Shown here piece by piece: positions 3,892 to 53,400 of a stretch of DNA of 64,000 bases. Numbering within the stretch: position 1 is the first letter of the stretch; every line of letters begins with the position of its first letter. Source of the stretch: Beroe forskalii (lineage: Eukaryota > Ctenophora > Nuda > Beroida > Beroidae). Location: the NCBI GenBank assembly GCA_011033025.1, contig WFMF01000551.1:1-64000 (forward strand), written 5' to 3'. Under the pieces are notes generated by a model. That model worked only from the letters and a program-made list of their open reading frames with translations, was not told the origin of the DNA and did not search any database. The translations under genes and the position numbers were made by a program.

Positions 3892-3918
3892 CCACTTTAC
3901 TCCATGATAATGACATAA
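3892..3918 (-). repeat. TGACGTCA-core dispersed repeat, copy 1 (diverged)
   Basis: CCACTTTACTCCATGATAAT followed by GACATAA matches the family consensus CCACTTTGAGCTATGATAAT GACGTCA over its conserved half. Only part of the unit is recognisable. Confidence 0.45.
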
Positions 3919-6900
3919 CATTGGATCTTCCAACAAGACCCCAGGACCCCTAACTCTGACTCCCCCTGACACCTGCTAGAGGCACCTGTTGTCCAGATCA
4001 TGAGACAGGAGCACGTTGCAGCTACAGACTCGAGAGTGAGGTGTCCCACACGAGGCACCACCAACCACTCTCTCCCCCCGTAACTCTAGCCCTGTCCGTC
4101 ACACACCCTGCACCTCTGTTACTCTGGCAACACGCCGAGAGAACAGAGAGTTGGGAAGGAGGGAGAGAGAGGACAGTGGTCATTCGTTTCTCTCAGGGAA
4201 GAGGAGCTATTTTGAGACTTTCTCATTGATGATAATAATATATAAATAATCTTATAATATGTCGTGTGTGTAGCAGCAGCTGCTGCATTTGATGTGTCCG
4301 CGTAGGGAGGGTTATTTCTGGTAAACGTCTGTATTGAATGTACAAGACTTTGAGTAAAAACTCCAGCCGTCGGAAAGCGGTGGGAGACCATACATCATAC
4401 TGTGGTGAATGACTCACGACTTCACGTTTATATCAGTAAACACGAGAAGTCCAATTTCATACCAAGTATGTATAACGGAAATCTACTATGCGTTTACATC
4501 TAAATTTACATCCAACCGTAGACTTAGAAAAACGTTAAAAAGTGCTGAAAAAAGAAGGAAAACGTACAAGGGGAAGCAATGCTATAAGTCTGTTGTTGCT
4601 CCTGAGAGTGCAGTTATTAAGTTATTAGAATGGGCGGTGGTGGAATCTACATAGCTCGTCCATCAAACACATTGTGTGCCTGATTCCCATGTACTATTAA
4701 CGTAATACAGCTGTTGTAGGACAGGTCATGTACAGGAAGCAGGCGGGTGAATCTGACGAATTTATCAGGGCTTTGAAAGAGCCACCGTATCAAATCAAAA
4801 CGCCTATTGTTCCTGCGCGACTATTTTAAGCATTTAGCAGTGGAAGGAGGTTCAAATTACTTCTGACAATAACTATTAACTACATACCGTCAGAAGACGA
4901 CAAAATGGCGGCAAGAAAGGGCGGATAATTCATTCTCGGAGGCATTCTCTATAATATTAAACTGACAATATTCACGGCATATTTTACTTCCAATTCATGC
5001 AGACTTTCTAGAGATCTGGGTGATAGGGAGGAGACGCATTCATATGCATAACTCTGATCAGACATCATCGAGATGTATCAATAGAGCTAATTTCAAAGAC
5101 TGCAACTATCGCAGACAATAGTGGCTTACTTTACTGATAGTTTTACGCAGAGATCCGGCTTCAAACTCATCAATCTGTCATGCCAATGATAGACTATTTA
5201 CTTATTTCAGGGATGAAGTGCAACAATGTCGAGAGAATCCGCCATGCCATGGGAATTGTTTGATAGGTAGCAACAGTAAAATAGCTGCTTTTGAACAGAC
5301 GTGCTTTGAAGGAGGCGATCTGTCGAGTGACAGGATGGTACCAGGTACATGGGTGGTACATGGTTGGTACTGCTATTATCAGAAGAATCATCCGAGGCCG
5401 TGTATCAAATTTTTGAGTTTTTTGTGTGGATTCAATACGATGTCAAGGAGAAGCCTTAAACTCTTAAAGAACTGTTGTACGAGCTGAAAGAACTTCTGTA
5501 GCATGATCTCCATTTCGTCAAATGGAAGTAGAAAAGCCAAAAGAACTGAATGAGATGGATCTATCTTGGCTTGCTTGAATTTCGACAGTTCTTGATAAGG
5601 ATATCCGGTATATGATCTCTAAATAAAAATTTAGTCTATCTATGAACAATATGGTGACTGGTCTTACCTCCCTTATGATAAGACTTCTCTTGAGATAGTC
5701 TGCTGGATTTTCCTGAAGGTGGAGAGAACAGGTGGCGAAGAGAAGGCTGAGATTGGTACAACCCCCGGTCTGTTACGTCACCTCGTCTCGTCTTGGTGAC
5801 GCAACTCCGAGCCGAACGATCGATCACAACGAAACATATCGATAATGTGCAAGCTATGAAAGGTCACGGAGCCGATCAACGGAAAACACTTTCTACAGCC
5901 CGAGGAGTGCCGAGCGGAGTAATGAATTATACAATTTCTTGAAGATGCACGGAAGGCAGGGCAGCTGGTGCGGTTAGCCAATCAGGAGCAGTATCGCTGG
6001 TCACGTGACCCTATCTGAGCGTGTCACGTGACTTTAGGAAATATCAATCTACTCTGCAGGGGATGGTGGAGATAGAGAGGTCCGCTGTGCAGCAAATAGC
6101 TCCACACACAGAGCTCCAGATATTTCTGCAGCTTGCAGTGCATCTGTTTTCCCACACAGATATTCTGCTCCTTCAGTCATTGGATGCCAAGACACACAGT
6201 TGTTACTTTCTTAGTAGATACTGATTTCTATTTTAGCAGATATTTATGTCAGAGAACCGTCGAAAAATGACATAAACCGGCTTATCTCGCTCTAAACTCT
6301 CAAACATATCGCCATTATAAGAACCATTTAATTAACCGTATCCACTCAGCACACAATATCTGGCTGTGAAACATCAACAAGTCTTCCACTTGTCACATGA
6401 CTCCGGATTCACGGAGGAGAGAAGGCTTGTTATGAAAATATTTGTTTTATCAAGCAGCTCAGAGCTCTCGACACTCAACGTAGAGATTATATACATAGCT
6501 TTATTAAAGCAGGTCGTTTACCAGCCGTGGTGGTCAATGGTTCGTTACTCTAGTTGGATTATCGGTCACGTGACGCAGTCACCTAACAGGTCACGTGCTA
6601 CGGAAATTTTATCTGTCATATTATACAAAATATTTGTTTAAATCAGAGCCGCGGTGTAGCGGTAAGCTGCCAAAAATAGTTTCGCGTATCAAAATACCGT
6701 GAATTAGAGCGAGTGGTGTTAAACAGCAAAGAGGAATATTTAACATTTTAGTTAAGAAAAATTTGTCACATAATTCAAATATTTTGATATCCAAAATGCG
6801 TTTCAAAAATTTAATTTTGCGCACACTTACGTTTAAATTTATTCCTGCACAGTATAGCAAAAGAAAGTGACTTTTACTTTGCCATCATAGAGGAATCTGA

Positions 6901-7126
6901 TGTGCCTGTCACAAATTACAAACCCGCAGTGGAAAACAGGAATATCACCAACTTCTAAAGATCGATAAATGAGCTCATTGAAGGCATAAAGGGTTAGGAG
7001 GATTAACGTTTGCACACTCAAATCAAGGTTAACTGCTGATAAAGTGATAACACTGAATGTTACCAATATATCCCAACCCCAGGTTTATCAATCAGTGGAA
7101 ACATTCATCACGTCCATATCTCGCGT

Positions 7127-7144
7127 GGGGGGCCCGGGGGGGGG
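7127..7144. other. GGGGGG-CCC-GGGGGGGGG tract
   Basis: A run of six G, three C and nine G in an AT-rich setting. Similar homopolymer runs occur at about 33,966 (C8) and 47,909 (G11). They may be slippage-prone or quadruplex-capable sites. Confidence 0.8.
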
Positions 7145-8394
7145 TAATAAGATATTCCTGCTGAAAACAGATACCCTCGCTACACTCCATTAAACACACA
7201 GGGTGTGGTCCTGTGTTTGGGTGTGTAACATCTACAGGTGGTGGACTGGTGGATATCGGCACCACAATTACAACTAGTCTAAATAATTATATAAAACTCA
7301 CACGAAAACACCAGGTAAAATTCGTCTAAACTCTTACAAGTTGCAGTCTAAAATCATACAAAAACCCAAAAACACCGTCTAAACTCCCACAGCGAACTCT
7401 ACACCTTAACTGACAGCTCGTATAATATGTAAAGGAAGTCAGTTAACTTGTTAATGTCTCCCAGTTATCAGGAAGTAAGGGGGCAGTGTGATAGGACTTA
7501 GGAGGGAAGGTGATGTCATCAAACACACCCCCGCACACTTTGGGAGAGGGCAGACATCATAGAGCTGGAACTCAGCCAACAACCAAAATCTTACAGAGTC
7601 ATGAGATAACAGGTACAAGAAGAAATGTTTCAAAAACTGGTATCCGAGCAATAAGAGGGAGGTACGCGAAGTGACGAAAAGCAGGTCAACGTGTTCGGAA
7701 TTACGTGCACTAGACTTCGCGAAGCAAGCAGAATCCTACGCGGACAGAATAAGGACAAGCTGACACTGATGACCACTGCAGCCACGATCTGATATACTCC
7801 TCAAGCTGCGTGCAAATGACATTAGACTCAGCTTAGTCCTGGTTATAGCAGATCAACAAACACAAACACATATCTATGGTAAAATATATATACGGGAGGG
7901 AGGAAAGAGATGGGAAGGCTTTCTTTTCCCTCCCATCCAATTAAAGAAAATGAGCATGCTGGAGAGTAGTACGATTGAAACCTATTAAAATCAATTATGA
8001 AATCCATTAGGCTCCTCATAAAAATGAGCGCACGTGTGCCAGGCTCCGGAGAACGAGTGATGTGTCGAGATTAAACTGCACGTGCTTAGCGCACGACCGT
8101 ATATATAACGTAATGGAGGGAGATATACTTAGAGATCTTTAGATAATATCTCGTAGATAATATCTAGTAACTTCATATATCTTGTATAAAGTGGTGGGTG
8201 AGAGACGGCGTGTTGTAACATTTGTGTATCTGTTCGAGGACAATAGAGCTTCTGGTATAATATCTCCATTTAGTGTCCCATAGAACCGTAACAATGCGAA
8301 CAAGGTGGTAAGTGTAGATGATGTGATGAGGCATCTGTGCCGACTAGGGGAACTTATTGTTAGAGGACACACAAGAATGGTAAACACTCAAGTG

Positions 8395-8440
8395 TGACGC
8401 TATTATCATGGCTCAACATGGTGAAATGGATGTTGACGCA
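8395..8440 (+). repeat. TGACGTCA-core dispersed repeat, copy 2
   Basis: It reads TGACGCTATTATCATGGCTC, AACATGGTGAAATGGATG, TTGACGC. The TATTATCATGGCT and AACATGGTGA blocks and both TGACG ends are kept. Confidence 0.7.
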
Positions 8441-10611: not shown

Positions 10612-10678
10612 ATACCACGACCAGTGCAATATGCCCTTATATTGCACTGTGGTTATCTGCACTGGAGTGGTATTATAT
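10608..10678. repeat. Hairpin TATAATACCAC ... GTGGTATTATA
   Basis: Arms at 10608-10618 and 10667-10677 enclose a second hairpin, AGTGCAATAT/ATATTGCACT. It directly abuts the 10421-10611 module and shares its last bases. Confidence 0.75.
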
Positions 10679-11313: not shown

Positions 11314-11361
11314 TTATAATATTCATCAACTCACTACTCTGAGTCATGATAATGACGTCAT
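11314..11361 (-). repeat. TGACGTCA-core dispersed repeat, copy 3
   Basis: It contains CATCAACTCACTACTCTGAG then TCATGATAATGACGTCA, followed by the shared flank TTCTCAACCGCCTAC. Confidence 0.75.
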
Positions 11362-14300
11362 TCTCAACCGCCTACTGCTTCCTGCTCTGGTCGGAGTAAG
11401 CTGCAGAGTTGCTGGATAGAACAAAGTGGAAGAGGGCACATCATGAACCAGAGGCAGCAACAATTAACCAAATGTCTAGGTACCATTATTCTATGCAAAC
11501 CTCACTGAATTGATCATATTTCAGTGAATGAATAAATATTTCAGATCAGTCATAATAAATACTTATATCATTGAAATGAAGATTCAATTTGTTAAGCTAC
11601 TGTTTATCACGAGAGGCTTTGAATACAATCCATTAATTGCAAGTTAATAGAGTGATAGGAGGCGTAGACTGTAAGGGATCGAGGGGTCAATCAGTTTAAC
11701 ACATCCAACATCAAGAACATGGTCGATAAAAGTTGTTCCTACAACCTTAGCTTCCTACAACCTAAGTTTCACAAAGCACGACACAAAAGACTTTGACCAC
11801 GCAAAATAACTGAAATATTATCGCAAGTTTTAAAATTATCGCCCCTCCCCCCATTGATATTATCGCACAAATAGTACCCTCCTTATATTGTGGGACAGCA
11901 ATTTATTAAATATGCAGCTGCTCCAATGGGTTCAGCACCATTTGAGGGCTCCACTACAAGTGAGAAAACAGAGAAAACAAAGAACGCACTCTATTAGGCA
12001 ACAATAAAAGTAGCATCTACTTGCGTAAGCACCACTCGCCCAGCCGGAGGAAACACTGTGATCTAACACACCATCATAGCGACAGCGAGACATGTGTCGG
12101 GGAAACGAAGCGTGAAAAGTGAGACTTGAACTCAATATTATAGTACGTGGGTAGCTTTCCACTATTAGCCTGGACCCCTGGCCGATGCACTTCACTGATT
12201 CAGATATGTATTGGAATGTCACAGACCAACAGGTGTCCTATCGTTTATGTGTACCGTTTCCTCAAATGATATTATTCAGAATATATGCTGCATGAACTCT
12301 GAGGTACTGCATAAGTTCCTAACATCTAGAACCTCATGTCATGATTAAATGGTCACGTCACTGCTTTAACAAAGGAGGGCCACCATCGCACACCATGATC
12401 ATCATGTGATCGAGGGGATGAAACAGTACCCCAAAAATGCCACGTTGGCACATGGTAATTCAAGAAATTGCATAAAATTAATTAAATAGAGCATTGCAGT
12501 TCGCATTTAAAGTCTTCGAAAGAACTATCATTAAGGAAAAGAACAATGCAAAATAAGATGACTGAAAAGTGAAAGAAAGTATGAGAATGCACTCAAATTA
12601 TGAAACCTGGTCTGGAGGGAAAAATTGACAGTTCCATGAACAGATCATTTTAGCCACGTGTGAACAAGTTGACGAGACTGAAGAGTAACCTAAATAGCCT
12701 ACAAATTACGGCATACAACACGACACACATTCAACCATGGGTGACCACAACACCCTGTACACTGAATGATATCATCCTGCGAGGAAATCAGAGGGTAGAC
12801 ATACATACATACATACATTTGAGAGGAGCCACAACAGCTGCTGATCACTTTCAAATGGGGTGGAATGTGCGGAATTTAATGGATCAAAGGAAAGAAGGCG
12901 AGGAGGAGGAAGAAGCCAAACCCTCACTTCACACTCACTGCATGATATGAACGTCACGGCCAATGCCAGGTATATTCTAATCGTAGTAATCGGAACTCTG
13001 AGTGACACATCACGTGACACTAATGGGATGTTGTGATTGGTTCCCACCGCCGAGTGTTTGTGGGCGTTTGTAAGAAGTTACAGATAAGGAGTAGTAGGTT
13101 CGAGCACATACACAATTATATGTTATGCAGTGGTGGGACTTTGTATTAACGAGTACGGAATATGTGGGCTGGTTAGGGACCGGCGTTACCTTTTCATGGG
13201 AACTTATCTTGCTTGGCAAGGATTCAGGGAGAGGGGAGGATGAGCCGGACGAAAAGCCATACACAAGGACGTTATTTGAGTTTCGGATTTCAAACACTCC
13301 CCTGTCCTAATGGAGGACAATGTGAACATTATTTTCACTTAATACTTTAATAATAATAAATTCAAGGATAATGCGAACAAATTACATTGGGTCGTTCGAC
13401 AAAATTTCATCCATTCTGCTATTATGACGGACTGATGGACGCAATAATGGCTGTCTTTTTCGGGCCAATGACATATAACATTGTCCTTCAAACTGAGATC
13501 TGAATCAACTGATTACTAATTGGGCTGAGATAATCCTGTTCCATAACCAGTGGTTGATAATTAATGCCGAAAACATTCTTTAATTGGTTTTTGACACCAG
13601 GAGATAAGAGCATGGGACCTGCTGGCAATTCTAATAAGAAAATCAATGTTTGCAGACAAAGTGAGGGAGTCCCTTTTTAAACCAGTTAAAAATCGTCATG
13701 ACACTATGATAGACAAAATTTTCGTCACTGGGATTTGAAACCCAAAACAAGACAAAGTGATCCAAAACAAGGCATTAGGTAAAATTATGAGGTCGAAGCA
13801 CATGACTATCATATACTTGTTGATAAGTTGATGATATGCAAACAGTAAACACCACTATTATTAAAATATGAGCATCCTTGCTGCAGCAAAAACCTTGTCG
13901 ATAGATGGAGAAGTTTAATTTATATAAGCGGGACAGGATCCTTACGAAAGGAGGCAGTTTATTAAGTACAAACGAACTGTTTAGAAATGTATGCCGACAG
14001 CGGTGAACGAAGCTTGAACGACGAAATTTTCATAATTTTATGAATGTGAAAATTTATAACATAAGAAGTCCAAAATACCGTCCCAAAGCCCCAGAAAGAT
14101 ACTATACTAACTAACTACTAAGTTTACCCTATTAACAACGCCTAGTCTTCTACATGTTAAACATTGACAAGTATTTAAAGCAAAAAATGAGGCAGACATA
14201 AAGTCTGGAAATAATAAAACCGTTAAACAAATCAATAAGTTAAAACATAGCATCTACAACTCAATGTGGATTAGAACTACGACTATGCAGATAAAAATAT

Positions 14301-17022: not shown

Positions 17023-17064
17023 TGACGTCATTATCATAGCTTAAAGTGGTAGGTTGGTGACGTT
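17023..17064 (+). repeat. TGACGTCA-core dispersed repeat, copy 4
   Basis: TGACGTCATTATCATAGCTT, AAAGTGGTAGGTTGGTGACG, TT: one of the most complete copies, with the TGACG blocks at both ends. Confidence 0.8.
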
Positions 17065-18387
17065 AAAAATCCGCTTATTTTAATATTCGTCCACTGGGTT
17101 TAATATTATCATGAACCACGATTATCAGACCCCTCACACGCCACCACATCTTGATACAATGCGAGTTGTGCATTGACTAGTGATGGATCATTTCCAGCAT
17201 TTGCCATTATAATCTTCCAACGTATGTCACCACGTGAGCTAGAGATGCGATGGGTTACTAGGTTAACTACGCTTTCAAATACCGATTATCCACATTAATT
17301 CTCAATCTTGAAAATAGCTTTAGACCTGCAGCTATTCTAAATCTCACCTCACTCAATGTTAATTCTGAGAAAAAGAAAAAAACGTAAGAAAATATAATTT
17401 TCTTCAGAAATTATTTAGATCCTCATTTATTAATCCGATGCCATCTTTAATCGCTCCTATTCTCCTATCGTTTGAAAATAAACTAATGAAATACGATGGT
17501 CTACTTCCATCATATTTAGGGTGGGAAGTGAACCATGAATTAGATTATGAAGGTCTACTTCAGGTCAGGAATCCAGACCCATTTCTACTGGTTCTGGCAG
17601 TACCGACTATTATTAGAATAAAAACCACTGACCATATATCCCTTATTCCATCCTTCAGCGATGGCTTCACCATACTCATTCACCTACATTCAACATAAAC
17701 GCAAACATTTAATACTCTCTTTACCAGGTAGTATAACACATCAAAATCTTAGATCACGGATACTCAAGTTTAGTTTAGATGGTTTTCAGGTCATCACAAA
17801 GACGTCTGGAGCCTTACGTTTTAAATGCAATCTGCGAAGAATAATTGAGTTCTTTGAATTGAAGAACCGTGTTAAAACAAATTTAATCAGACCAAAATGA
17901 TGTGTCAGCAAAACCAAAATAAGGATGATTTGTTTTCGTTTTTCCGGACTACATGAAACTGTTTGCGATAACTGGCATAACAAAAAAATACTTTTTCCTG
18001 TTGTCGCAAGAGGAAAAACCAGTGAAAAGTGGTTGGTACCCAACAAGTAAATATGAATAGTGGTACTAACACAGCAACTCTAGAAACTTACTATTGGTGC
18101 TATATTCTAAAACAAAACGCACAAAGCAAGTTCAAATATAACATTTGCACATCACTCGGCGGGAAGCTAATGCAATGGAGCTAGAACATTTCCTGACCTG
18201 TCATTGGCTGGGAAGCAACTCACTGAAACAAGGAATGGAAAATGGTAAGGAATGGGATTTAGAAATGGGAAATATACTGAAATACACCACTTGTCTCACT
18301 CTAACCTTACTCTACATTTATATACTAGAGCCTTGGAGATCATTGAGCTTTGAAACTATATAAACCTGGGTTGTAAGTAGGATATTC

Positions 18388-18430: not shown

Positions 18431-18610
18431 TTATGTTAAAAGACAATGCTATGCAGGCAGCAGCAATTCCACTCCCAGTTAGCCAGTAGAAGTAGACTTG
18501 TGCAGATTTGGAGAAGACAATGCAACTTCTAGATTCGGAAATTTGAAGGTAGTAAGTTAGTATTTAAAATTGTTAGATTTCTATGCACCCTAAATATAAT
18601 AGGTCAGTTC

Positions 18611-18652
18611 AACATCAACAAGTTACCACTTTGAGCTATGATGATGACGTCA
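18611..18652 (-). repeat. TGACGTCA-core dispersed repeat, copy 5
   Basis: AACATCAACAAGTTACCACT, TTGAGCTATGATGATGACGT, CA. It is followed by ACAACCACCTAC, the shared flank seen at copies 3 and 9. Confidence 0.75.
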
Positions 18653-18849: not shown

Positions 18850-18936
18850 TGGTTGAGGCACAGGTTGGTATTTGGAGGAATAACGTGCTCTGTAGAGTAT
18901 ATCCTAGTGAAACATTGGCGGTTTAACGGCCAAAAT

Positions 18937-18966
18937 TTACCATTTTAAACCCTGATAATGACGTTA
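18937..18966 (-). repeat. TGACGTCA-core dispersed repeat, copy 6 (partial)
   Basis: TTACCATTTTAAACCCTGAT then AATGACGTTA. It lies about 0.3 kb from copy 5 in the same orientation. Confidence 0.6.
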
Positions 18967-25446: not shown

Positions 25447-25488
25447 TGACGTCATTATCATGGTTAAGAGTGGTTAGTTAACAGCGTC
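25447..25488 (+). repeat. TGACGTCA-core dispersed repeat, copy 7
   Basis: TGACGTCATTATCATGGTTA, AGAGTGGTTAGTTAACAGCG, TC. The first 18 bases equal the consensus. Confidence 0.75.
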
Positions 25489-26382
25489 AGATTATTTGGA
25501 AAACGGTTTTCGTGCGCGGCGTAAGAGCTATAATGGAGCTGAGATGGATTTAACTAGATAATTTACTGACTCTCGGGAGTTCTGAAATATTTTATAGTCA
25601 ATAGATTTTAATCCTAAATTATTTGAATGATTTAAGCTATCAGAACTACAAAACCTATTATACGAACCTATGCTATAAAATAAAGACATTAATTTTCATA
25701 GAGAATATTTTTATAAATTGAATTACGTAATGAATTGAGATTTTAATTTTATATGATTTAATGCTTCAGAAGGCACTTAATGCTTTTATGCAGTCCTAGC
25801 CATTATTAAAATGCGAATTCCAGCAGAAACTTTATAAATAACTCCACAAATTCGTTCTGAAACTCTGTGACGAATCAAATTAGAACTTATTTTACGATAG
25901 TAGGTTATGGAAATTCAGGGCATGTTCATGGACTAATTAGGTTCTAAAAATAGTTTCAGGTTTTAAGGCAGGGACTTCGAAATGAAATTAATTCTAAGTA
26001 GATTATAATCTGTGGAAACTCTGATGCCGTTGCATGCACTCTTGCAGAACGTTAAAAGGTTGAATGGGCAACCGATAATAACAACAACAGCAATGATAAT
26101 TTTAACTGAAACATTTTAACAACCATTCTAACTGACTTGCAATTAATCTGATAACGCGAACAGAGTTCCGATCAATTTCAGGGATTATTAATCATCGATC
26201 ATTTGGTGGGACATTTTGAACGAACGCCTAAGAAATGACCTAACGGCCGAATTACGGACCATGAAATTTGAATTAGAAATGACGTCACATACATTCTAAC
26301 TTCATTATACCCTTCACGCCCTATTGGGAGGATTGAAACACTTAAAACATATACCTTGAGAATCAGACGATCTGGCAGCACT

Positions 26383-26414
26383 AGTTACCACTCTAAAGCA
26401 TGATAATTACATCA
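26383..26414 (-). repeat. TGACGTCA-core dispersed repeat, copy 8 (diverged)
   Basis: AGTTACCACTCTAAAGCATG then ATAATTACATCA. It is followed by TCCTACTATCT, the outer flank shared with copy 14. Confidence 0.55.
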
Positions 26415-27522: not shown

Positions 27523-27837
27523 GGCTATAATTGCGCTATTTTGGATATTATCCAGACCCAGAGCCCTTTGCAGACGAAAAAACAATTCTAAAGGACAGCG
27601 ATACATTCAAACATCTAAACAAGTTGCCCCTCGTATCAATAACAAGGATAGAACTATGAACCACCTAATGTAAAATTAATGCGATGCGATTATGAGAGAG
27701 TGAGCTATTTATACGCCGGAATCACTCCTGGTTTTGTCCAGTAGAGCATGATCATTGCATTGCAATTACTCCGCCATATAATAAGGGACATTACAATGGT
27801 GGTATATAACAAGGAACAGGGATTCCCTTGCGATTCT

Positions 27838-27880
27838 GCATCAACAACTCATCATTTTGAGCTATGATAATGAAGTAATC
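27838..27880 (-). repeat. TGACGTCA-core dispersed repeat, copy 9
   Basis: GCATCAACAACTCATCATTT, TGAGCTATGATAATGAAGTA, ATC. It is followed by TTAACCACCTATTAATC, the shared outer flank. Confidence 0.65.
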
Positions 27881-28708: not shown

Positions 28709-28746
28709 TGACATCACTATCATGGTTTAGAATGGTGAATTGACGA
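28709..28746 (+). repeat. TGACGTCA-core dispersed repeat, copy 10
   Basis: TGACATCACTATCATGGTTT, AGAATGGTGAATTGACGA. The core palindrome is mutated to TGACATCA, but the rest aligns. Confidence 0.65.
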
Positions 28747-29851
28747 TATCATCCCGACTATATTCCCCGTGACGTACAATGCCGAGTGTTCATCACCACG
28801 CATATAGGGCTCAGGTAAAGGGCCCACTGGTGGCTGGTAATCCATTTACAGTAATGGGACTAACTAACTCCCAGTGGAAATGCTGGACAACTTGTCTCCG
28901 AACTGTGTGCACTATAACAAGTGGAGTAGCTGCTGTTCTAACCAGGATTACAGGGATTAAAAGAGTGGTGGTGGTTGGTAACTACTAACTGTGTTGGGTA
29001 AACACCAATTCATTATATCTCAAGTAATGTCTTTTATTATTTTACAACTTTATAACATCTGCTATATAACGGCCGACCTGGCTACCAAATCATAGCACCC
29101 TATTCTTAGGTTTCTTTAAATAACTATTTATAAATACCACCGTTGATTTTAAAGAATGGTTAATTAAATAGAATTCCCCGCATATCTTTATAATCAACAA
29201 AGAATGAGAGGGGCTGAGAGCAATCATTGGTCCAGTGTAAGGCACCATGGACAAGGACTGCTAGGAGAGTCTTCATTTCTACCTGCCGTTCCTTCCGTCG
29301 AATGAAATCCAGAGTCACATAGACAAACAGTGTAAGACTAATTCAAGCAGTGTAGGACTAATCCGAAGGGTTCATTAATTAACAGAACGTGGATTAGATA
29401 ACCTGTTAGCGTTATTAACGGGACATGTGACTTCCACTCAAGAGTCTAGTGACTTCGGGTGAAAAAACCGAAGCGCTCAAGAGGCAACACTCGGCAGAAA
29501 AGGTAGGTTTTTCGTCAAATTTTGCCGCAGAAGACGGAAGTTATGAGAAATCTACCAAAGTACCAAAGCATCCGGATGAACACTCGAGAAAGAGACAAAA
29601 GACTGAGACGTTAATCTACTAAGGTGCTGCGAGGAGGCATCATTAGTCTCCAAATGAGCCTAGTTCGCCGGCCATTGGTCTTGGCTTTTCATCAAACTGC
29701 TCAGAATACACACAACACAAAGAATCATTAAACAGGATAATTCAAGATAATATTATATGCGATGGTGGTCCCTGGTTTGAGAGAATAATAAACAATTCAT
29801 TGCAACGTATCGTTTAAACCTGCTATTCAAGCCGCGTTTGAAAAATAACCT

Positions 29852-30972: not shown

Positions 30973-31000
30973 TGACGTCATCATCATACGTTAACATGGA
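30973..31000 (+). repeat. TGACGTCA-core dispersed repeat, copy 12 (partial)
   Basis: TGACGTCATCATCATACGTT then AACATGGA. It lies 13 bases after the perfect palindrome at 30936-30959. Confidence 0.5.
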
Positions 31001-33442
31001 ATATTCCCAAAAATATGAGTTTCGTATAAAATTTCGATCCCAATTGTTCCATCATATGAAACGAACATAACTGTAGAACTGTGGAACAATCATCAAGTAC
31101 CAGTACTGCAGCCAACTGTATGATGTGAATTTGGACTAATGTCCACCTTGTTTTGAATTTATTGTTTGAAAATTGATATGTAGCGCTAACCTACCATCGT
31201 GTACTCTCTGTGATTGCTATAAATAAAGTGCAGGACACGTGATAGCGAGAGGTTGTCAGACACATTAGACTCATTTTACACTCACTGTACAGTGTACAGA
31301 GTACATCTACATTCAGATCACTCAGCTTCGCCTCGAGTTCCAAGCCCCAGAAAATTTACCGTAGATCAGTCTATCAAATTTGGTTTTAAAAGCAAATAAT
31401 AAGATAAATTTTGTGATGTGTTTTCTGGTATCACTGTACTATAAAATATTGCTTCGATAAAAATTAAACCATCATTACTATCACTCAAGCACTTAAAAGT
31501 AAATTAAAGGTAAATCAATAGTACATTTACTATTATTAATTCTGGAGAACACACATTCCCTTTCCCCAGTGTGGGTTGACAGTCAATCCACAGCAACAGA
31601 TGGTGTCTGACCCTTATTATCGTCATCAGATGGACCACCAGGGTAATAGTGTAATACATTAGGTTTTAATTGGCAAAGTACAAAAAACTAGTGTTCACGG
31701 TGTATTACTTTGCCGTTAAATGTAAATGATGTAAAATGGCTTTACAAAAGTCATCAATAAAAAGAAAAGAATCATTCTAGTTTTCACAAAGTTTTAAGTA
31801 CAGAATAAAATTTTCAAAGTCAAGTTATTCATCTGTAAAAAACTAAATTAATGTTGCAGAGGAGTGAGGAGAGTTACAAAATGGAACTGCAAAAGCCAAT
31901 TTCAGGGGACGGAGGACCTCAATAAATTTCAATATTATATTGCTACTGTATGTAATTTGAATAGCATATAATGTAATTTCAAGAGAATAATCGGTATAAT
32001 ATTTACTGTAACACACAATGAAGTTAGAGAAAACCGTTTTGGAATAATACCCCCGCGTGAATGGAAAATGCTCACTAAAGATTTGTTTGTTCCTTACGAG
32101 TTCCTTTTTGTAGCGTTGGATTTTTAATAGCATAGCCTTCATTTTCTAAGATCGCCCCAGTCCCTATTTATGATAATTACTGAATTGTGCGTTCGAAAAT
32201 AAATTCAGCACGGCAAACAGTTGTATCAAGTTTCCAGTAGCTGCAGGACGTCACGTGGCGAGAGCTGGTAGACTGGACTATTCGCCACTGCTCGCCACTA
32301 CAGTCTGCCTTAGGAGCAGGAGCAGTGAGGAGCAGACACAGAGACAATAGGGGATTGGATACTCGTCTAGAGACTGACGGACAATCAGGATACTTCATTG
32401 ACATGGGCACTGATTTAAAATAATTACTAATATAATAATATAACTTTTTGTGCGAATTGCGAAAAAATAAGAAAATTTGGGACTAAAAGGGAGCTGAAAT
32501 TTTCAATTCAAACAATGGCAAGTCTGGAGAAATCGTTTCAAGGTTTGTGCTGGGTCTGGTGGTAGCATGAATTAAAAACCATTAGATAGAACATTATTTG
32601 GTTTGACTCTTTCTGTCTAGTGAGTCTCCCATCTTAGTCTACACCAAATTTTATTTAACGAAGGACCTTTCAAGTAGATACCAACCAACAAAGATAAACC
32701 ACATAGATATCTCTAATATATTATCTAACTCAGGATTTATAATATCCATATTTTCATTTCGTTATCTAAATAAATAATTATTGTCAAAGATATGATACTC
32801 ATGACAGATGGAACAAAGACCTTCGACCAATGACCAGATATCAAAACACATATCTTTTCACGTCAAAAGATATGTTAATTAAACTGCAAAAACGAGCTAA
32901 CTGCAGTAGAAATTCTACTTGAACTCAAAGAAAACCGGCAAACAAACAGCATTACATTTGACAATAGTTAATGAATAAAGTATACTTAGCGATCTCACAA
33001 AACAAAGAAGCAGCAAAATAAACACGGCATATCAACGTTCAGACCTGGCGGAGCTTAACTTGACCGTTCTACTTTCTAAAATCAACGAATATCAAGATAA
33101 CCGTTCTACAAACATCATGGAAACATATCCACATATATCATAATGAAAAATACGACGAATAAGAAACAATCCGAAGAAAAATCAGACGTTTAAAACACAC
33201 ACACACACGTCCCAGCTTAACATAACATTATATACGAGTGCACCACAAACAAGATGCAGCTTGAACGATGTGGCTGATCCGTGTGTTTATGTTTTTGTTG
33301 TGATCGAGGTGATGAGTTAATGCTTACAGCACGATATAGAGGCGTGGGCCACCTGAACAGCACCAGTTGTCGCACTGCATGCTTGTCATTGAGGATACAA
33401 CATTATACGAGCTACTGCAGCACAAGTATGTGTGTAGAGGAG

Positions 33443-38430: not shown

Positions 38431-38439
38431 ACTGACTAT

Positions 38440-41672: not shown

Positions 41673-42765
41673 TGCGGGCTTAGGAATAAGGGCACAAAAT
41701 GAAAGCATGCTTTCATGTCGTGCGCGCACAAGATGAAAGCATGCTTTCATCGTGCGCGCACAAAATGAAAGCATGCTTTCATCGTGCGCGCACAAAATGA
41801 AAGCATGCTTTCATCGTGCACGCACAAAATGAAAGGATGCTTTCACATTTCATCGTAAGCGCACAAAATTTAAATGAAAGCACATGCTCTCATCGTGCGC
41901 GCACATGATGAAAGCATGCTCTCATCGTGCGCGCACAAGATGAAAGCATGCTTTCATTGTGCGCGCACAAGCCACAAAATGAAAGCATGCTTTCATCGTG
42001 CGCGCGCGCAAAAATAAAAGCATGCTTTCATCGTGCGCGCAAAAAATGAGAGCATGCTTTCATCGTGTGCGCACAAAATGAGAGCATGCTTTCATCGTGC
42101 GCGCACAAAATGAAATCATGCTTTCATCGTGCGCGCACAAAATTAAAGTATGCTTTCATCATGCGCACACAAAATGAAAGCATACTTTCATCGTGCGCAC
42201 ACAAAATGAAAGCATGCTTTCATCGTGCGCGCAGTCGCGCACAAGATGAAAGCATGCTTTCATCGTGCGCGCACAAAATGAAAGCATGCTTTCATCGTGC
42301 GCGCACAAAATGAAAGCATGCTTTCATCGTGCGCACAAAATGAAAGCATGCTTTCATCGTGCGCGCACAAAATGAAAGCATCCTTTCATCGTGCGCGCAC
42401 AAGATGGAAGCATGCTTTCATCATGATCATGTGCGAAAAAATGAAAGCATGCTTTCATCTTGCAGCGCACACAAAATGAAAGTATGATTTCATCTTGCGC
42501 GAACAAATTGAACGTATGCTTTCATCTTGCACGAACAAAATGCAAGCATGCTTTTATCTTGCACGAACAAAATGCAAGCATGCTTTTATCTTGCACGAAC
42601 AAAATGCAAGCATGCGTTTAATCTTCAATCTTGCACGAACAAAATGCAAGCATGCTTTTATCGTGCGTGCACAAAAAGAAAAAGCATGCTTTCATCGTGA
42701 GCGCACAAAATGAAAGCATGCTTTCATCGTAGGCGCACAAAATGAAAGCATACTTTCAGTTTGCA
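41563..42765. repeat. 32-bp satellite of alternating palindromes, about 34 units
   Basis: The unit is ATGAAAGCATGCTTTCAT (an 18-bp perfect palindrome) followed by C, GTGCGCGCAC (a 10-bp perfect palindrome) and AAA. Units are nearly identical in the middle and diverge toward 42,480-42,660, where CTTGCACGAACAAAATGCA variants form a sub-block with 32-bp spacing. Since 32 is not a multiple of three, open frames such as 42065-42313 rotate through the unit and are not taken as genes. Confidence 0.95.
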
Positions 42766-43439: not shown

Positions 43440-45418
43440 TCAACAAGGTGGCCTCCTTAACTTTCTAACATAATATAAAAACAGCCTTAAAGTCCTGGAT
43501 AAAATCACCTTACAAACGTTTATTAGAAGAGTCAAAAGTATAAAGCCAAAAGTCATCAAGTCAATATTATAGAAATCGATAAGATGACTTAACCCTTTGG
43601 GCAAGGCGCGGTACTTGTCCTTAACCTTGCCAAACAAAACCAACTTCCTCACATGATACCCAACCAAGTCCTCCTGCGTTACAGGCGACAACTTCTGGAG
43701 ATCCACGGACCTTTCCATCCGACTCCTAATCTGGAGAGAGTCCCTGAAAGTCTCATTGAGAACCTGACTTATCCGGTCCTCTGATAAATCCTCCTTAGTA
43801 AGGATGACCCCGTGTCCATTGAACTGTACGATGTTGCTGATCATGGGTTGTTCTCCGTAAAGCGGCACGCAGATCAGAGGCACTGCGTGGTAGATGGCTT
43901 CCAGACGGGCGTTGTTACCACAGCTGGAGATGAAGACGGATATCAGACCACTCCTCAGCAGGGCTTTCTGGGGGATCCACTTCTCCAGCAGTACGTTGTT
44001 TCGTTCTACGACTGAGAGAGGGCTATGGGTTACATCTAGAAGTAGAGCAATCATCATCAAGTGATCCAGTGAGATACATCTAGATGCAGGAATGGTCAAT
44101 TGGAAAATTGATGAATCAATAATGAAACTGGAAAATGGTACTGTGAAGCAGAGAGTGGATCATGATCATCAAGGGGGGATGGAGATTTTGGGCCAGATAA
44201 GGTGGGTGGGGGTTGCCCTAATTTCAATGATTCTGGGAGGACTTGGACAGAAGGGGGGAGTTGAAAAGTTCAGGGGAATTGGACCAAGGATGAAGCTGTG
44301 TCAGTGTGTCAAGGGTGAGGTGATTTTGATGATTATGATATACCTGGTTGGCTTCCCCCAGCAGAAATGATGATCTTTATGTCCAAAGCTTGGGCTGCCC
44401 GAACGAAAGCTTGATACATAGTCCGCTTGTACTTATTTTGACGAGAGAAACTACCGAATGACAAATACACGGTTTTCTTGGCGTCCTTCCCCAGGAATGT
44501 AGCTATGTGACGGGGTAAAGGTTTCTTGTATTCATTGGGATCCCCGAACCCAATGGTCCCAATGTTAACCACACTGGGTGGTAGAAGGAAGGGAAAGGAG
44601 AAGGTGGTAGCATCGTTCACAAAGAATGTATCAATCTGATGGGATAGTTCTGATAGAGAGGAAATGTTGTGATCCTCAAGGTATGGTCGGAATATTTCTT
44701 CAAGCTCTAAAGCGAATGGAAACTGTACCACCATTTCGAAGAAAGTCTTCACCTTCTGAATGAAACCCACCTTCCCTTCAAAATCTAACCCTGAAAAAGT
44801 ACTTGGCTCCCGGTTGAAGCTTATCGGCAGATTGTGGACTAACTTAGGTAGAATATAAGAGAGTTCAGGAGTCACCATTACCATTGGAATGTCTTTAGCT
44901 CCAAGCAGGCCTGCCCAGACTCCTCTTTCTTCAGCTATAATGGCCTTAAAATCTAGTTCTTTAAGAAGACTTTGCCACTGACTGCTCATGAAGAACTTTA
45001 GGGATTGTTGGTAGAAGGAGAGCACAGCTTTACTGCAGTCTTTAACCCCCAAAGTAGACGCCATGACCTTGTCTGTGTGGACTGAGAGAAGGGCAGCCAC
45101 GCAGTCCTCAATCTGGAACTCAGACTTAGCATGCTCCTCAATAAGTTCAGCAGAGAAGAGAGGATGCTCGTCAGTCACTGTCAGAGGCATGGTTATCACA
45201 TGGAGGTTCTCATTGGAAGTATCCCACGCTACTCGGGACTCCCTGGTCAAGCTAACCAGGGTTACGTTGAAGCCTTGGTGAGACAGAACCTTACTCACTT
45301 CCAGCATGAAGAACATGTGACTGCCTCCAATCGGGCAGAACGTCAGAACATTGGTGGTCTTTGACATGAGAGCTGATTTTGCCAGAAGAGCAAATAGGAA
45401 TGCCGAGCCAAATCTCAT
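43440..45418 (-). CDS. UDP-glucuronosyltransferase family protein (two exons)
   Basis: Family members move a sugar from a UDP-sugar to small lipophilic acceptors at the ER membrane. Exon 1 (45418-44344) and exon 2 (44035-43440) join in phase 1 (CCA G / AT GTA) across a 308-bp intron and give 556 residues, a normal UGT length. Visible features are a signal peptide (about 1-18), the catalytic His in PIGGSHMFF (His34), the strand YLSFGSFS before the donor domain, WIPQ (378-381), the donor signature FISSCGNNARLEAI (393-406), PLYGEQP (416-422), and a C-terminal membrane segment (about 519-540) with a basic tail ending KLRRPPC. Oddities: the position of the catalytic Asp partner reads Glu163 (IIAEE), the signature His is Ser396, and the usual DQ is EQ (420-421). 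I chose the Met at 45418 because it begins the signal peptide; the frame is open 46 codons further upstream. Donor sugar and activity are uncertain. Confidence 0.9.
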
Positions 45419-47354
45419 ACTGCTACTGACGATGTAGCACGTTCCTGTCCTGAGTATAACACGTTTTGTAATACCAATAGATGAATGGGCAGACCCGAAT
45501 GGAGTGAGATGGTCAGAGATCCGATCTACAGATAATGGAAACCACGTTTGCGTCACTAAAATGATTTTAAAAAGTATTACGACTCAACAATATTATTATG
45601 AGAAGATTGATTCCTGCGTGTTTATTGTTACGAAATATAAGTGGCCTTTTATCTTTAAAAGAGGCATGGAAACACTGACGTAGTCAATGAACTTTTCTAT
45701 TGTTTAATCACCTCAATCCATACAATGCTTGCTTCATAAGATTATAGCATATGATAAGAAAAGTGAGAAACAACCTATGAGGCCAAGTACAACGTTACGT
45801 GATGCTAAGGCAAACAAAAAGCGAAAGCAAATGAAAGTTTAACTTTTTGCCCGCGGATTCAAAGTTCTAAAGTTCTACCCGAGTTGAAAGTACCACGTGA
45901 ACCAGAGTGTAAGTTTTAAGTAGCTGAACAAGGTTTGACAGCTTTCACTCGTGTGACGTAAATGAGCCACGTATATGCGTGATTGTACAGCTACAAAGTA
46001 CAACGACCAGTGTTTAAACGACTAATGAGGCATCAGCCTCAACCGATAAGTCACGTACATAGCAACGTTTACAAAAGGTTTCATTCTCCAGAACTCAAGA
46101 ATTCAAATAGGTTTACAAATTCGCAATAAATTAAAAGTGAAATATTACAAATACCAGGTCTCAGCAGCAGTATGCGGATGATTAAAATTAATTCTAAATA
46201 CAAACAATTAATCTGTTTTCGTCCTAGCAGGAGGACGTATATCACAGCTAACTATGCTCAAGGCAGAATCAAAAACTGAACAGCTCAAAAAGTTCAGAAT
46301 ATAGACTTCAGATCGACTACATTAATTGATTAATTAACGATTCGTTAAAGTTATAATATCAATTTTTCAATGTTGTCATTATTTCGACATTATGATTTTT
46401 TCTTTTCAATTTTATTCCATTTAATTTATTTCATAAATATTAGCGTTCTTTTTTGTTGTTCGTTCCTCAAAGTTAATAAAATTAAATATTACTCTGAAAG
46501 TATCTGTTATTAATTAAGAAATTCCTCAAATTAAATCAAGAAAACAATGATTTCGAATCACTGCCAAGAAAAATCCAGGAAAATGGCGGGGGATAAAAAA
46601 GCCTACTTCGCACTTGCATCTACTAATGTAGAGATGGCCTTTTTAAGCCGAAAAGCCTACAAAAGCAAAAGTAAACACTAAAATTCTACTATATCGCTTA
46701 CAGCTATATAGCATGAGCAATGAATATTGATGTAGCTATATAGTTTTAAGAAAGTTATAATATTACTAGAAAATGAACTAAAAACTAACCAATGGGACGC
46801 TACGATCAGAGCAGCAGGAATGAGGAATTGTAACTTTCTGAGAAACTTAATTATTTTTAATTATCCATTTTGCGACTATCCATTGTTTTTCTGCGAAAAT
46901 GATTAAAAATGGTATAAAAAGATATAGTGGATTTAACTATTTGATAACCGAAACAAAAATGTCCGTCTTGAAATCACGTGCTACAAATACCGCGTTGCCC
47001 CTAACGCGTGAGGTACCATGGCAATACTCCAATAAGGGAGCAGGAAGGTGTCCTCATTTGGGCGGCCGGGTAGCGTGCCCCTTTTCCACCATCAGGTTTG
47101 AGATGTACACATCAACTTCAGAACTTGTGTCTATGATGCTGAAAAGAAGGGAACATTTTTGGCATGGAAAATCAAAAATTTGTTAGATGCAAATTCTGTT
47201 CATTTTCAGTTTATTGCATCAATTCAAACTGAGTTTCATAACCACCAAGAGTACTGCTATCATTTAACAAATGAAGATATTTCTTGAGCATCGGCTAGAT
47301 GAAAATTCACCCCGAATCTGTGTATTTTAAGGTCTGAAAATGCGTTGTACTTAC
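45419..47354. other. Between UGT and last visible Tudor exon
   Basis: It presumably includes the UGT promoter and either the 3' end of the Tudor gene or an intron of it. A GC-rich block at 46,975-47,095 contains GGGCGGCCGGGTAGCGTGCC and looks like element debris. A small inverted pair, CAGCTATATAG/GTAGCTATATAG, lies at about 46,700-46,745. No exon accepting the phase-2 Tudor splice was found. Confidence 0.4.
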
Positions 47355-47487: not shown

Positions 47488-50400
47488 CTGCGAGGAGACA
47501 AAAAGATTACGGAGAGAGCTGCTACCGCCATTTACAGAGAGGTGGTTCTAGAAGAACAAAGTGATAATATATGGGTACGTAATTCAAAGATATATTTGAA
47601 AAAAAAGGTTAATTATGCTGCATAATTTTCAAAATGTCGAGCATTATTCAGAAAACTCAAAGTGCATTTTTCTTCGAACTCAAGTTTTCCAAATCTGTTG
47701 TGCATTAATCCTCCAAGCTCACAGAACTTAGATGCATACACCAGTGTATTAGCTGGCCCTACTAACCATGGATGTCCCGATGCAAATTCCCTGGCTCTGC
47801 ACTTATACTGCACACTACACGTGCAATAAAACCAGGCGAGTGGGACTACAGACCCCATTAAGGAGGGGAGGACCCACCCTCGTTTTCAAAATCCACCTTG
47901 AAAAATTTCCGGGGGGGGGGATAAAAGTAAACCTCACACCAAATTACGACCCCAATCACCCACTCTTACCAACGAGAGCTGCCCGGCACGCTTGTATGGG
48001 TATTTCAGCGAACTTCTTCACCAGGGGCCTAAGACTGGTAACAGGTACTGTCTGGATGTCTCCGTAATCCAGCATAGAGCACTGCGTCGTCTGAAGAAGG
48101 GGGAGGTTACAGTGGAGATGTTTGTAGATAATGAGAGGAGAATACTGAAGAGAAGTTGAAATGATAGTGAAGAGTAACAGGTTGAGAATTTATTACCAAT
48201 CAATAATTTCAGATGGGATTAATGTTAGTCAATTGATTTCAGAGACAATAACCCCCAATTAACGTTAGCCAATTAACGTCATAGTCCGTTAAAGGCTCTT
48301 ATTTCAGTAGTGGAAATAGTAGCTCTGAGAGTGATGTAACTAAGTAAACGCCAAATTGCGCGTCCTTCCCGACAACATCAACTATATCCTAACTATAGGC
48401 ACCAACATACGACCTTATGACCTTATCATTTTTCACTTTTACAATTTTATCCGTCAGGGACAATCGCCACCGCTCTATAAATTACTACCGTGCATGAGTA
48501 GGTGGAAGTAGACCTAGAAAAAAACCTGGATTCATTTGACCTCAATGCGAAACTTAGAGTGACCAATAAAGATAGGATGAAAGGGGTCTTTCCCGGAAAA
48601 AGTTGGGTACGAGGTTCCCGGAGGCCGGAAATTGGGCTAATCGGTGGTTTTTAAGTTTGTTCTCGGTTCCTTTTCATTTGAATGAAATATGCAAAAAATA
48701 CGGCATTTTTTGAGAATATTACCGAACAATCCGGAGTCTAAAAATAAACACTTCGACCGCTCCAATTAGCCCTGTTTCAAGACCGTATAGAGACACCAAT
48801 TTTACGTCGTATTCCGACAAAATGAACGTAACTTGACTACTGAAAAAGACGACGTTCTGAAAGTTTTTCGGGAACATGAACGAAATGTGACGTCAAAGGC
48901 ACGCAATGCGAACATATATCTGATTTATAAAGGTAAGGACTGCCAGATACATTCCATTTCAAGCTTAGCACGACACTATACCTACCTAGATGTACGTATT
49001 ATAACGTACTATTTCTGGGAGTAGGAATACGCTTCTTTCTCCGATCTAGGGAGGAAGAGGTCTCGTGTGCGCGCAGTAGGCTCTGCTTAGTGACGTCATT
49101 ATCAGGGCTTAACATGGTGAGTTGGTGACGTTTACCCTGCTGCTTTTCATCCGATAAAAGATCCTCCGGAGGAAGAAAAGTCTGACCGAGTTTACATGAT
49201 GGTAATTGTTACAGCGGGGTCATTAGCCCGATACCCTGGACAGCCGGGCGTATTGTTATAGCCATTCCTTGAAGAACGGCTTAACATCACGCCAATTTAC
49301 ATATTATCAAGTAAGTATATATATTATAAGTGAAGCGATTAATAAGGATAGAAGGTAGAGTGGCGATGTGATGGCCGCACCGGCCACTGGTTGCCCTCCA
49401 TTGCCTTGATACGTTCACACTGCGAAGTTTAAGTGTTCTATAGTTATATTATATATTTTCTAAGTGTAAGTAACTTCAGGATCTTTGCCTTGATAAGTAC
49501 GTCACTTTCCTTTGTTTATATTATCCTAGATTGTACAAGCGTTGCTATTTGCTGCAACAAATATTAGGAATATGTCAATTATTATTTGCTCTACAGCTTC
49601 TTCAGAGTCATGTTTCGCCCATATGATCAGTATGATATTGGTGTGACGACAGATCCGAACTACTGAGAAAGATGAATATAAGTTTCAAATGAGAAATGAG
49701 GGAAAAAAATTCGGGAGATATTTTCGACGGCAGTTCCGAGTAGAGTATTATTAGGCTAGAATTTAAGGTGGAAACGTTGGGAGTTAAAATTTCAGAGAAA
49801 TTAAAGGAGAGAAAAGGTATCAACTTATATCTTCCGGATTAGGTTCATTATGTCGGAGAGAGTTTCAATAATTTCTGTCGTATACACCCGTATATTGATT
49901 GAAATGCAAATATGACTTTGAGTTCAATTAAGCATGTAATTCAAGCAGTAGCCGATAAATTTCAATTTTAAAAGTGACATTTTAATAAAAGCCGCGCAGT
50001 GGAATTGGAAAATATAAGGGAGAAAAAATCATTTTCGAAAAAAACCATTTCGAAAAAACATTTTCGAAAAAACAAAAAGTTTTGAGCTGAGTACATAACT
50101 TAGGGTTAAAAATATGTAGCACCTGTAGATATGAGCAGAGCTATTGTTTAAAACCCTTATATTGCGTAGGTTCAGTAGCTGAACAGTGAACATATTAGAA
50201 TTCTGTGGAAATATACAGACCAATATTTCTTATTTGATTGCATTTCAAGAGTTAAGAAGAGCAATTAAATTTCATGCGCATATCTGAGTATGTGATTTTG
50301 AGTTTGAGGGCAGGATTAATGTTCATACTTTGCTTATAAGATAAGAAAATCTGCTTTCAAGCAATACGATTTTTGTGTTGAAGAGGCTTTTGAGTGAAAA

Positions 50401-53400
50401 AAGTATACCATCTCACGGCATTGCGCTAAATTTGATATAACCGGGAGGAGAAATTTAAAGACAAGAGACAAGTTCTTCTAAGTGAAATGTCATAATTAGA
50501 TGGGCAATCAGTTGGTACTAAGACGAACAGAACAATTCAAAATGAGATAGTGCCACACATTAACAAGTTAATTAATAAGATAATATAAATGAATAGTGAA
50601 TCCTCTGAAATGTGGCTGCATATATAATTCATTCACAAAGAAAGAGATATATCATTACATTGGAACCACTTAAAACGGTGTACTGCATATTGTTCCAGGT
50701 TTTACAAAGCCGATTTGAATGTACGAAATGGCTGCGAGTAATCGGGAAACAGTGCTTTGTTTGCCAGCAGTAACGACCACCTACTGTTGCTGCTGCCCTG
50801 CAGTAGTTACGGTACAATTAGGGAGAAATTGTCCACCCCGCGGATGCGTGTCGCGCTTCCACAATGGAAGCTGGAGTAAAGGCATAATGGGGGAAAGTGC
50901 CGGGAGGAAATTTGTAGCCCTAAGTGGGCGCGATAACAGCTCAGTAAGTATCTAGTATGTGGCACACAAATCCCTGCAGCAGCAAGCAGCCAGGAAAACA
51001 CAGTTACAAGAGGGGAAGCGTTACAACGCATTGTTTAGTCTAGGGAAGGGTCAGGGTTAGGAAGGCGTGTTGCATTGTTGGAGTGGCTGAATATAGACGA
51101 GCAGTTTGATATTTATTGCATTTATATTCGCCAGATTTGGTTAGAGAATTTAACTTGAATCGGCTTCAAATCATACTCGTTGTTTTCAAATTTTCTGAGA
51201 ATTCCGACTTTGTGCTGAAATTGAAGAAATTAGAGAAATCTTGGATCTCGAGCAAAAATCAGTAGGATATTAAAGAGAATCTCAGTCAAGATGCCCGAAA
51301 ACGCTGACAAATAGACAGGCATGCATTCTAGATGAGTCAACTTTTTCATGAACATGATACAGACAGCAAAACCTCCTGCTAGTCATCCCAGACTTCGCAA
51401 GATAGACTATCTGGATATGAGCCATATCGTAACCCCCCGCTTAATGACTCAAGAACAAGTTCATATCTCGAAGTCTGGGAAGGACGGTTTGCCCAGCGAA
51501 GGAGGCAGTTCGGTATCCTCAAGGCTTCCCAGGGGAACCAGACAAGTCTAAGCAAAACCTAAGGAAATCGAGTTCAGTGGTCGGGAAACATATTTAGTTG
51601 TGGAGCTACGTTTGAAATTATTGCTATGTCCGTTAGTTCCAATTTTGCACTTCTAAAATTTTAGTAGCCAATCAAAACGGTAAATCAAATTAATAGTCTA
51701 AAATTACGAATTGACAGATTTAAGCCCGTCTCCCGACACACTCAACCCTAATTTTGGCAGACTACCACTATTCATATCACTACCGTTTATCGAAATAGAC
51801 GTTGAGTTAGATACAGGAGATCAGCGATCCCATCATCAGGACAGATCTCAAAGAGTTAATACTACAGACAGGAATAGTAGATAGTCCAACGTCATCAATT
51901 CACCATTCTAAGCTATGATAATGACGTCATTCAACGAGAGCCTACTATCCGGGTTTGTGGCGTATTACGAGCTCCCGGGGATGTTTAGTTACTATAATAT
52001 ACTCTGCTTCTCTCCCTAGAAATGGAGTAGCTATCTAGGAAAGATCACAGTGCTCTGTGTTACGTAGATTATACGTGCGTGTTTCGTGTATACGATCTAT
52101 CTGGACTTCATATATCTCTGATTTGAAATATACATATGTAAGTGTTAGGTTCTCTATCTAGAGAGGAAAAGAGATAAATATGTTATGTGAGCTTCTCTTC
52201 TCTTTTTGAATCGTTTAGCTACCGTTCGTTGCTTTTATGGAGTACCCTATATAGAATACTCCTCATGTGATGATTCCCAGGACTGTTCAGTCGAGGCACT
52301 TGTTCAGGAGAAATGAACTATACATACCCAATAAACACCACTTATATACGAGTACATACGAGAATGGAGTATACTGCCAACATATTGTTTTTATATTATA
52401 TATGTGGACTATTCTAGACCGACTGATCGATGTATAATCTATACTTCTCCCTATCGATACATAATATATTAGATGTGACCAATCCTGCTGCATGTAGTTA
52501 TTATTTAGCTACGATGTGTCTCTTGAAGGAGAGTGGCACACAGCTTCCGATAGCTACCACACCTCGATATATATCACGTCAGAGTTTCAACATATAGGTC
52601 TACAATCGTCTACGCATTTGATACTTGTGTCTTGTTGAAAGTAATTACTTATCTAAAGTAGCATTTTTATTTATTTTTCATCGTAGGGAATGGATGAGTC
52701 CCTTCGAAGCCCCTGTTCATAATTCAACCGACCAATTTGATTTTTCAATTTTGATCCAGAAGGTAAATTTGAGTTCTCCTGTAACAGGGGGGTCCACCTC
52801 TGACATATTCCTAAATCTAGACATGTGAGGCCACAGACCCACGGAGCAATTTTGAACCCAAATACACAATTTTAGTGTACTTAATTGTCAAAATCGGATA
52901 TAAAGGAGCTCCTACTACGAGTCCACCTGGATCGGCACCTCATCCACCCCTCCACTCTTCAGCCATTACATGTGGAATCAACATGATGCCTCCCTCATGT
53001 TTCTCCCTCGCTCCACCAACATGGCTGAAGGCTGGCACAGAGGCTTCAACTCCATGCCCTTGATTAGGCCGCTTGTCCGCGATTAGGTAATAAAGGATGA
53101 ATGGCCTAAACAGTAATACTAAAGGTGGAATGAAAGTTGGAATGAGTTTTAGGCCAAATGTCCAGTTAGGCCAGATGACCGCTAATTTTAGTACAGATTG
53201 TTAGGCCATTTGTCAAGTTAGGCCAACTGTCCAGTTAGGTCAAATGACCGACTACCTCTGAGAGATGAGCTTGTTTTCCCCGTCATTTAGGTCAATACCA
53301 TTTTAGCCTATGAAAATCCTAAAACTCACAAAATGACCATACCTCAACACGCAATTTTTATGAAGTTTCGTCCAGTCAAAGTTCTATAACTTTGGCCAGG

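Follow-up and report, generated by a model that had tools for sequence, protein, structure and literature searches.

The stretch of Beroe forskalii (Ctenophora) DNA analysed here (contig WFMF01000551.1, positions 1 to 64,000; 'the window' always means its full length) carries a dispersed repeat with a 40-bp core, whose left part is the 15-mer TGACGTCATTATCAT and which forms the middle of a miniature inverted-repeat transposable element (MITE). An earlier note, made from the letters of the window, had listed 14 copies of this repeat. With a weight matrix of 43 columns, built from 104 copies on other contigs so as to avoid circularity (40 mid-anchored, 45 of class D and 19 of class A, as defined below), we likewise recovered 14 non-overlapping copies (Table 1), all of whose scores (18.9-65.6) lie above the highest value (12.3) that the same matrix reached when the window was resampled 30 times under a first-order Markov model. 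Moreover, the window holds 24 matches to the 15-mer at up to 3 mismatches, where 100 dinucleotide shuffles averaged 3.22 and never exceeded 10. The dispersed repeat is real and its parts stand in the order that the note had given; within the set of 14, one copy (30973) belongs, to judge by its flanks, to family C (a different repeat, see below) and one (1386) lies beyond the range covered by the note. The strands are split 7 plus to 7 minus (in place of the 6 and 8 counted before), and the face-to-face pairing that had been read into neighbouring copies constitutes no evidence, since 5 plus-then-minus neighbours were observed where 3.5 are expected by chance; the two strands are also near equal genome-wide. 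No core copy overlaps either of the two open reading frames (ORFs) of the window that have an above-cut-off Pfam match (10 of the 50 listed ORFs were scanned), namely a UDP-glucuronosyltransferase (43440-44159, minus strand) and a sulfotransferase (62286-63491, plus strand); the frame adjoining the former (44333-45583) gave no Pfam match.

Table 1. Copies of the core in the window, as located by the matrix built from other contigs.
Feature	Positions	Strand	Matrix score	Remarks
Core copy	1386..1428	+	35.6	
Core copy	3876..3918	-	35.0	
Core copy	8395..8437	+	19.1	right half weak
Core copy	11318..11360	-	47.7	15-mer exact; left terminal-repeat arm recognisable alongside, junction 11347-11376
Core copy	17023..17065	+	57.6	15-mer exact
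Core copy	18610..18652	-	47.7	
Core copy	18924..18966	-	43.6	
Core copy	25447..25489	+	45.3	15-mer exact
Core copy	26372..26414	-	18.9	right half weak
Core copy	27836..27878	-	39.6	
Core copy	28709..28751	+	45.5	
15-mer with one mismatch	30973..31015	+	19.6	flanks family C-like, not MITE core proper
Core copy	49091..49133	+	59.4	
Core copy	51887..51929	-	65.6	best of the window; 87% to 61-nt consensus 1-61 (51888-51949)

A genome-wide scan (216 Mb, 1134 contigs) found the 15-mer at 22,804 sites with up to 2 mismatches (11,279 forward and 11,525 reverse), against 694 for the reversed control pattern (354 and 340). The excess over the reversed control amounts to 22,110 sites for the 15-mer, 7,067 for the mid core (a pattern with a high control, 9,234 vs 16,301 matches) and 6,131 for the terminal repeat; as part of the 15-mer total comes from two other repeat families (B and C), these excesses are only suggestive. 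We compared 83 exact 15-mer sites in 72 loci (L001-L008 and L040-L103) among the matches listed, four of the loci having been chosen as dense, after removal of duplicates and of rows without full flanks; one exact copy (C1:2216568, in L032) is absent from the matches listed, which are hence not exhaustive and were set aside as a measure of strand bias. The sites sort into class A (19, recognised by the left arm of the element), class D (45, the remainder), B (13) and C (6), with A and D being one superfamily.

Among the loci examined, 34 elements carry both inner arms, each within one mismatch of AAATAGGCGG/CCGCCTATTT. Outward of these arms, the consensus pooled from both ends reads CTCGTGCGCGG.GTTTAA, and the outer ends resemble TTAWACSCCGCGCACGAGAAATAGGCGG, so that the full element is a ~105-bp palindrome with an outer consensus common to both ends. 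The element is short, non-coding and present in high copy number, and it possesses terminal inverted repeats (decayed in many D copies); its ends look like TWTAA, and the insertion site, judged by eye, may be TA-like or TTAA-like. The dispersed repeat represents the central part of an old palindromic MITE of high copy number. Of the identities offered in the earlier note, the minimal MITE has thus gained full palindromic elements, and the transposon end gives way to the middle of one; the weaker outer flank (CAACCGCCTACTATC type) is present as had been described, and is in fact one arm of the inverted repeat.

The D core has the 40-bp sequence TGACGTCATTATCAKGGTTTARAATGGTGAATTGATGACG, with the parts TGACGTCA, TTATCAK, GGTTTARAATGGTGA and ATTGATGACG. 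It opens with TGACGTCA, similar to a cAMP response element (CRE), which is followed by TTATCA (which we take to be GATA-like) and by a second TGACG 35 bp past the first. Core positions 0-7 are kept at 0.75-0.97 in the 40 mid-anchored copies, and the second TGACG stands at its expected offset (0) in all 30 scorable mid-anchored copies and in 32 of the 37 scorable D copies. The CREB/ATF sites named in the earlier note stand as a resemblance of motif, with binding being presumed. Furthermore, the core recurs at a 35-bp period: five exact 30-base cores lie in a satellite-like fashion at C434:138156-139130, with spacings (175, 175, 420 and 175) that are multiples of 35 bp, two exact cores are found 35 bp apart (C692:168878 and 168913), and head-to-tail units occur in L035 and L081. 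This recurrence would be explained by slippage from one of the two TGACG sites to the other.

In the D copies sampled, the 40-bp core is much better kept than the terminal repeats that abut it. Class A was sorted by the left arm, and class D, which collects what was left over, is biased against copies that have this arm intact. A reciprocal anchor, with 40 copies fetched solely by an exact mid core, gives a set that has neither bias. In these copies the 15-mer has an identity of 0.895 (0.82 after correction for a background of 0.423) and the right core one of 0.832 (corrected 0.70), while the left and right terminal repeats, with shifts of up to 2 bases allowed, reach 0.570 and 0.568 (corrected 0.30 and 0.31); removing the 2 rows in which no 15-mer is recognisable changes little. 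The left border of the core is sharp (conservation rises from 0.57 at position -1 to 0.95 at position 0), and the right one is gradual, fading across positions 38-42. Class A decays evenly (corrected identities 0.77, 0.63, 0.67 and 0.63, the first biased upward by the sorting). When the 38 mid-anchored copies whose 15-mer is recognisable were divided into terciles of flank identity (ties fall in two terciles), the lowest tercile had flanks of 0.46 (left) and 0.48 (right) at a background of 0.38; in the 45 D copies, the remaining 25 core bases stayed at 0.755-0.758 across all three terciles. Core identity is nearly independent of flank decay.

A genome-wide search for the junction between terminal repeat and core (effectively up to 2 mismatches over 29 bases) gave a similar picture. 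In the 43 of the 49 best junction rows that have at most one mismatch over 28 fixed positions (6 were set aside), the terminal half (15 nt) holds 34 mismatches and the core half (13 nt) holds 4 (p=4e-6), or 20 and 2 when the CpG of each half is left out. Exact copies number at least 100 for the core and 5 for the junction genome-wide (the core pattern being 4-fold and the junction pattern 2-fold degenerate), and the totals of 210 (junction) and 3,101 (core) are not comparable. Moreover, in a genome search with eight D copies and their flanks, for which 40 out of 2,094 candidates were scored, seven had no other match sharing both flanks.

Several observations weigh against the explanation favoured below, a core kept by selection. 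From the highest to the lowest flank tercile of the mid-anchored copies, the 15-mer slips from 0.944 to 0.892 and the right ten bases of the core from 0.862 to 0.744, and conservation is weak (0.53-0.57) at the right TCA of the second palindrome. The eighth D copy of the sibling search (L135) has a relative on the same contig that is 94% alike, flanks included. Pairs of copies sharing at least 13 of 18 flanking bases number 47 on the left and 19 on the right, as opposed to 3.2 on either side after column shuffling, and this overdispersed similarity points to copies of mixed age or to several subfamilies, whose terminal repeats may have drifted within an active selfish family. Furthermore, the sampled sequences amount to ~130 out of thousands.

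The 15-mer is also found outside the MITE. In family B, whose mark TTAAAGCGCTAGGTGCGCTTAA has 1,311 sites at up to 2 mismatches (control 0), it lies directly downstream of the mark in 10 of 10 loci selected by that mark, with 0-3 mismatches, at least five of these loci being sites previously found via the 15-mer. Telomere-like CCCTAA stretches adjoin TTAAAGCGCTAGGTGCGCTTAA in this family (L198-L207; also L045), followed by the 15-mer, and part of the family is arranged in inverted pairs (e.g. L045). The mark of family C, GTTAACANGAGTAATGACTTGA, has 367 sites (control 0), with the family having been read only in loci picked by the 15-mer. Family F possesses arms and TGACGTCATTA as in the MITE around a different middle. 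Chance is an unlikely cause for the occurrence of the 15-mer in three kinds of repeats (by a rough estimate that was not computed), and descent through shuffling of modules is as possible an origin of the sharing as function.

The explanation that we favour, with confidence poised at about the halfway mark, is that the core would be a protein-binding site spread by a transposon and kept by selection, most likely in a regulatory or architectural capacity. The core may represent a composite platform, in which the CRE-like palindrome would serve perhaps a bZIP factor and the other parts its partners at fixed spacing; transposition would have scattered it across the genome, selection would have retained it at many sites after the death of the element, and the retained cores would most likely act as enhancers, promoter-tethering sites or sites of chromatin architecture. 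The domestication raised in the earlier note becomes probable in so far as the core is kept beyond the terminal repeats. More tentatively, and short of even confidence, thousands of such MITE-seeded 40-bp platforms, under purifying selection long after the element died, could form a lineage-specific regulatory or architectural network built by transposons in a CTCF-lacking group of animals; the 15-bp left part of the platform may also have been seeded by at least two other repeat families.

A constraint of selfish origin, by which the core would meet a need of the element itself (as a transposase-binding or amplification signal) in many formerly active sub-lineages with drifting terminal repeats and without host function, is a possibility that we take seriously while doubting it somewhat. 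The subterminal or internal position of the 15-mer in several repeat families, the overdispersion of flank similarity and the even decay of class A (which indicates recent activity) are in line with it; the terminal repeats, which a transposase normally needs, are however the less conserved part here, seven of the eight D copies lack a sibling sharing both flanks in the search described above, and the core is still conserved where the flanks are near background. That the element is an ordinary MITE decaying neutrally, and that the way of selecting copies has created the difference between core and ends, we regard as improbable: high copy number, absence of an ORF, inverted ends and the even decay of class A would be expected of it, but the difference holds with two different anchors, in segments that played no part in the selection, and again in the junction search across the genome, which selected on both halves equally.

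The core as a loop-anchor site bound by CTEP1/CTEP2 in ctenophores, or a relative of it in this species, would be a long shot. The published description reports a motif with two CpGs (as in the core) in more than 75% of Mnemiopsis leidyi anchors, a similar motif in Hormiphora, and DNA transposon insertions in more than 90% of looping promoters (PMC12221973); it calls the motif GC-rich, however, while the 15-mer has 33% G+C, and the GC-rich outer arm of the MITE would fit this description better than the core does. A structured RNA gene, or a polymerase III unit resembling a short interspersed nuclear element (SINE), is the least probable reading by far. The element is able to form a hairpin, and we take GGCTTARAATGGTGA to resemble a tRNA A box; a tRNA-derived head with A and B box is lacking, as the window gave no tRNA and no Rfam match at gathering score, inspection by eye detected no B box, and the ends are inverted. 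Covariation between the left and right arms, moreover, is absent from D and from mid-anchored copies (the observed value is reached by 440 and 103 of 500 shuffles, respectively) and borderline in class A (27 of 500), on which grounds the RNA hairpin was rejected and a composite protein-binding site is favoured.

Additional observations concern the surroundings of the repeat and other parts of the assembly. The window contains two tandem arrays, one (41692-42758) with ~32 copies of a self-complementary 32-bp unit (GCACAAAATGAAAGCATGCTTTCATCGTGCGC; 83% matches) and one (59292-59886) with 9.1 copies of a 65-bp unit (92% matches). Over its whole length (1-64000) it has a CpG observed/expected ratio of 0.75, while TpG and CpA both exceed 1.16, so that CpG is mildly depleted in a methylation-like manner. 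The mitochondrial contig (C1134, 13,339 bp) encodes COX1 with 4 internal TGA codons, which are read as W under code 4. A Pfam scan of 10 of its ORFs (L195 listed 16 of at least 70 aa, and L196 and the rest of L039 lay outside the scan) matched four, namely COX3, cytochrome b and two of the NADH dehydrogenase/antiporter kind; the other six had no match at E 0.01, and no ATP6 match was obtained among the ten. ARAGORN (bacterial settings) reported no tRNA in L039, L195 and L196. Two large frames without a match come after the longer NADH frame, and an unidentified frame in this position (L195:4847-5953) opens with a repeat of part of the upstream frame L195:1612-1995. Ctenophore mitochondria are reported to lack tRNAs, ATP6 and ATP8, to evolve fast and to contain unidentified frames (PMC6991124), a picture with which the contig agrees. 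Three receptor loci (L164, L165 and L166) have as nearest solved structure the M. leidyi receptor ML032222a, followed by the ctenophore receptor 4zdm, with a wide margin in the case of L164 and L166 but a narrow one in that of L165 (4zdm reaches 58.7 bits and a vertebrate receptor 58.3); the top identity to the M. leidyi receptor among 11 receptor-like loci is 49%, in keeping with a ctenophore other than M. leidyi. Both L164 and L166 hold an ionotropic glutamate receptor gene that apparently lacks introns, the open frames running through 971 and 979 residues, respectively.

Transposons have often been proposed as seeds of regulatory networks. The present case is unusual in that the likely functional part outlasts the mobile ends in many copies, and mass exaptation becomes directly testable through a defined 40-bp sequence of which many copies can be dated. 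In the open-licence literature we found neither the exact 15-mer nor, in searches on ctenophore MITEs, loops and genomes (Beroe included), on MITEs that carry binding sites and on CREB in ctenophores, a description of the repeat. Plant MITEs are known to spread E2F sites, and the element resembles such MITEs that spread transcription-factor sites in being short and non-coding, in its inverted ends and high copy number, and in its motif similar to a binding site; it differs from them in that the core outlives the ends in the sampled copies and that the 15-mer is common to two other repeat families. With CORE-SINEs it shares a conserved central domain in repeats with differing ends, although its ends are inverted and neither a tRNA head nor a tail of the kind seen in long interspersed nuclear elements was seen. 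Like the CRE of CREB/ATF it contains TGACGTCA, while the constrained unit is far longer (40 bp) and bZIP binding is predicted from the motif. As for chromatin architecture, PMC12221973 reports that CTCF is absent outside bilaterians, that ctenophores form chromatin loops, that CTEP1 and CTEP2 bind a GC-rich motif with two CpGs at the loop anchors of M. leidyi, and that placozoan anchors match the terminal repeat of Mutator. The repeat of B. forskalii is similar to these systems as a motif linked to a DNA transposon in a non-bilaterian, with a possible architectural domestication. It differs from the GC-rich CTEP motif in the low G+C content of its 15-mer, and from the Mutator terminal repeat in that the motif is here the middle of the element; the core may thus be a different site of the same general sort as that of CTEP.

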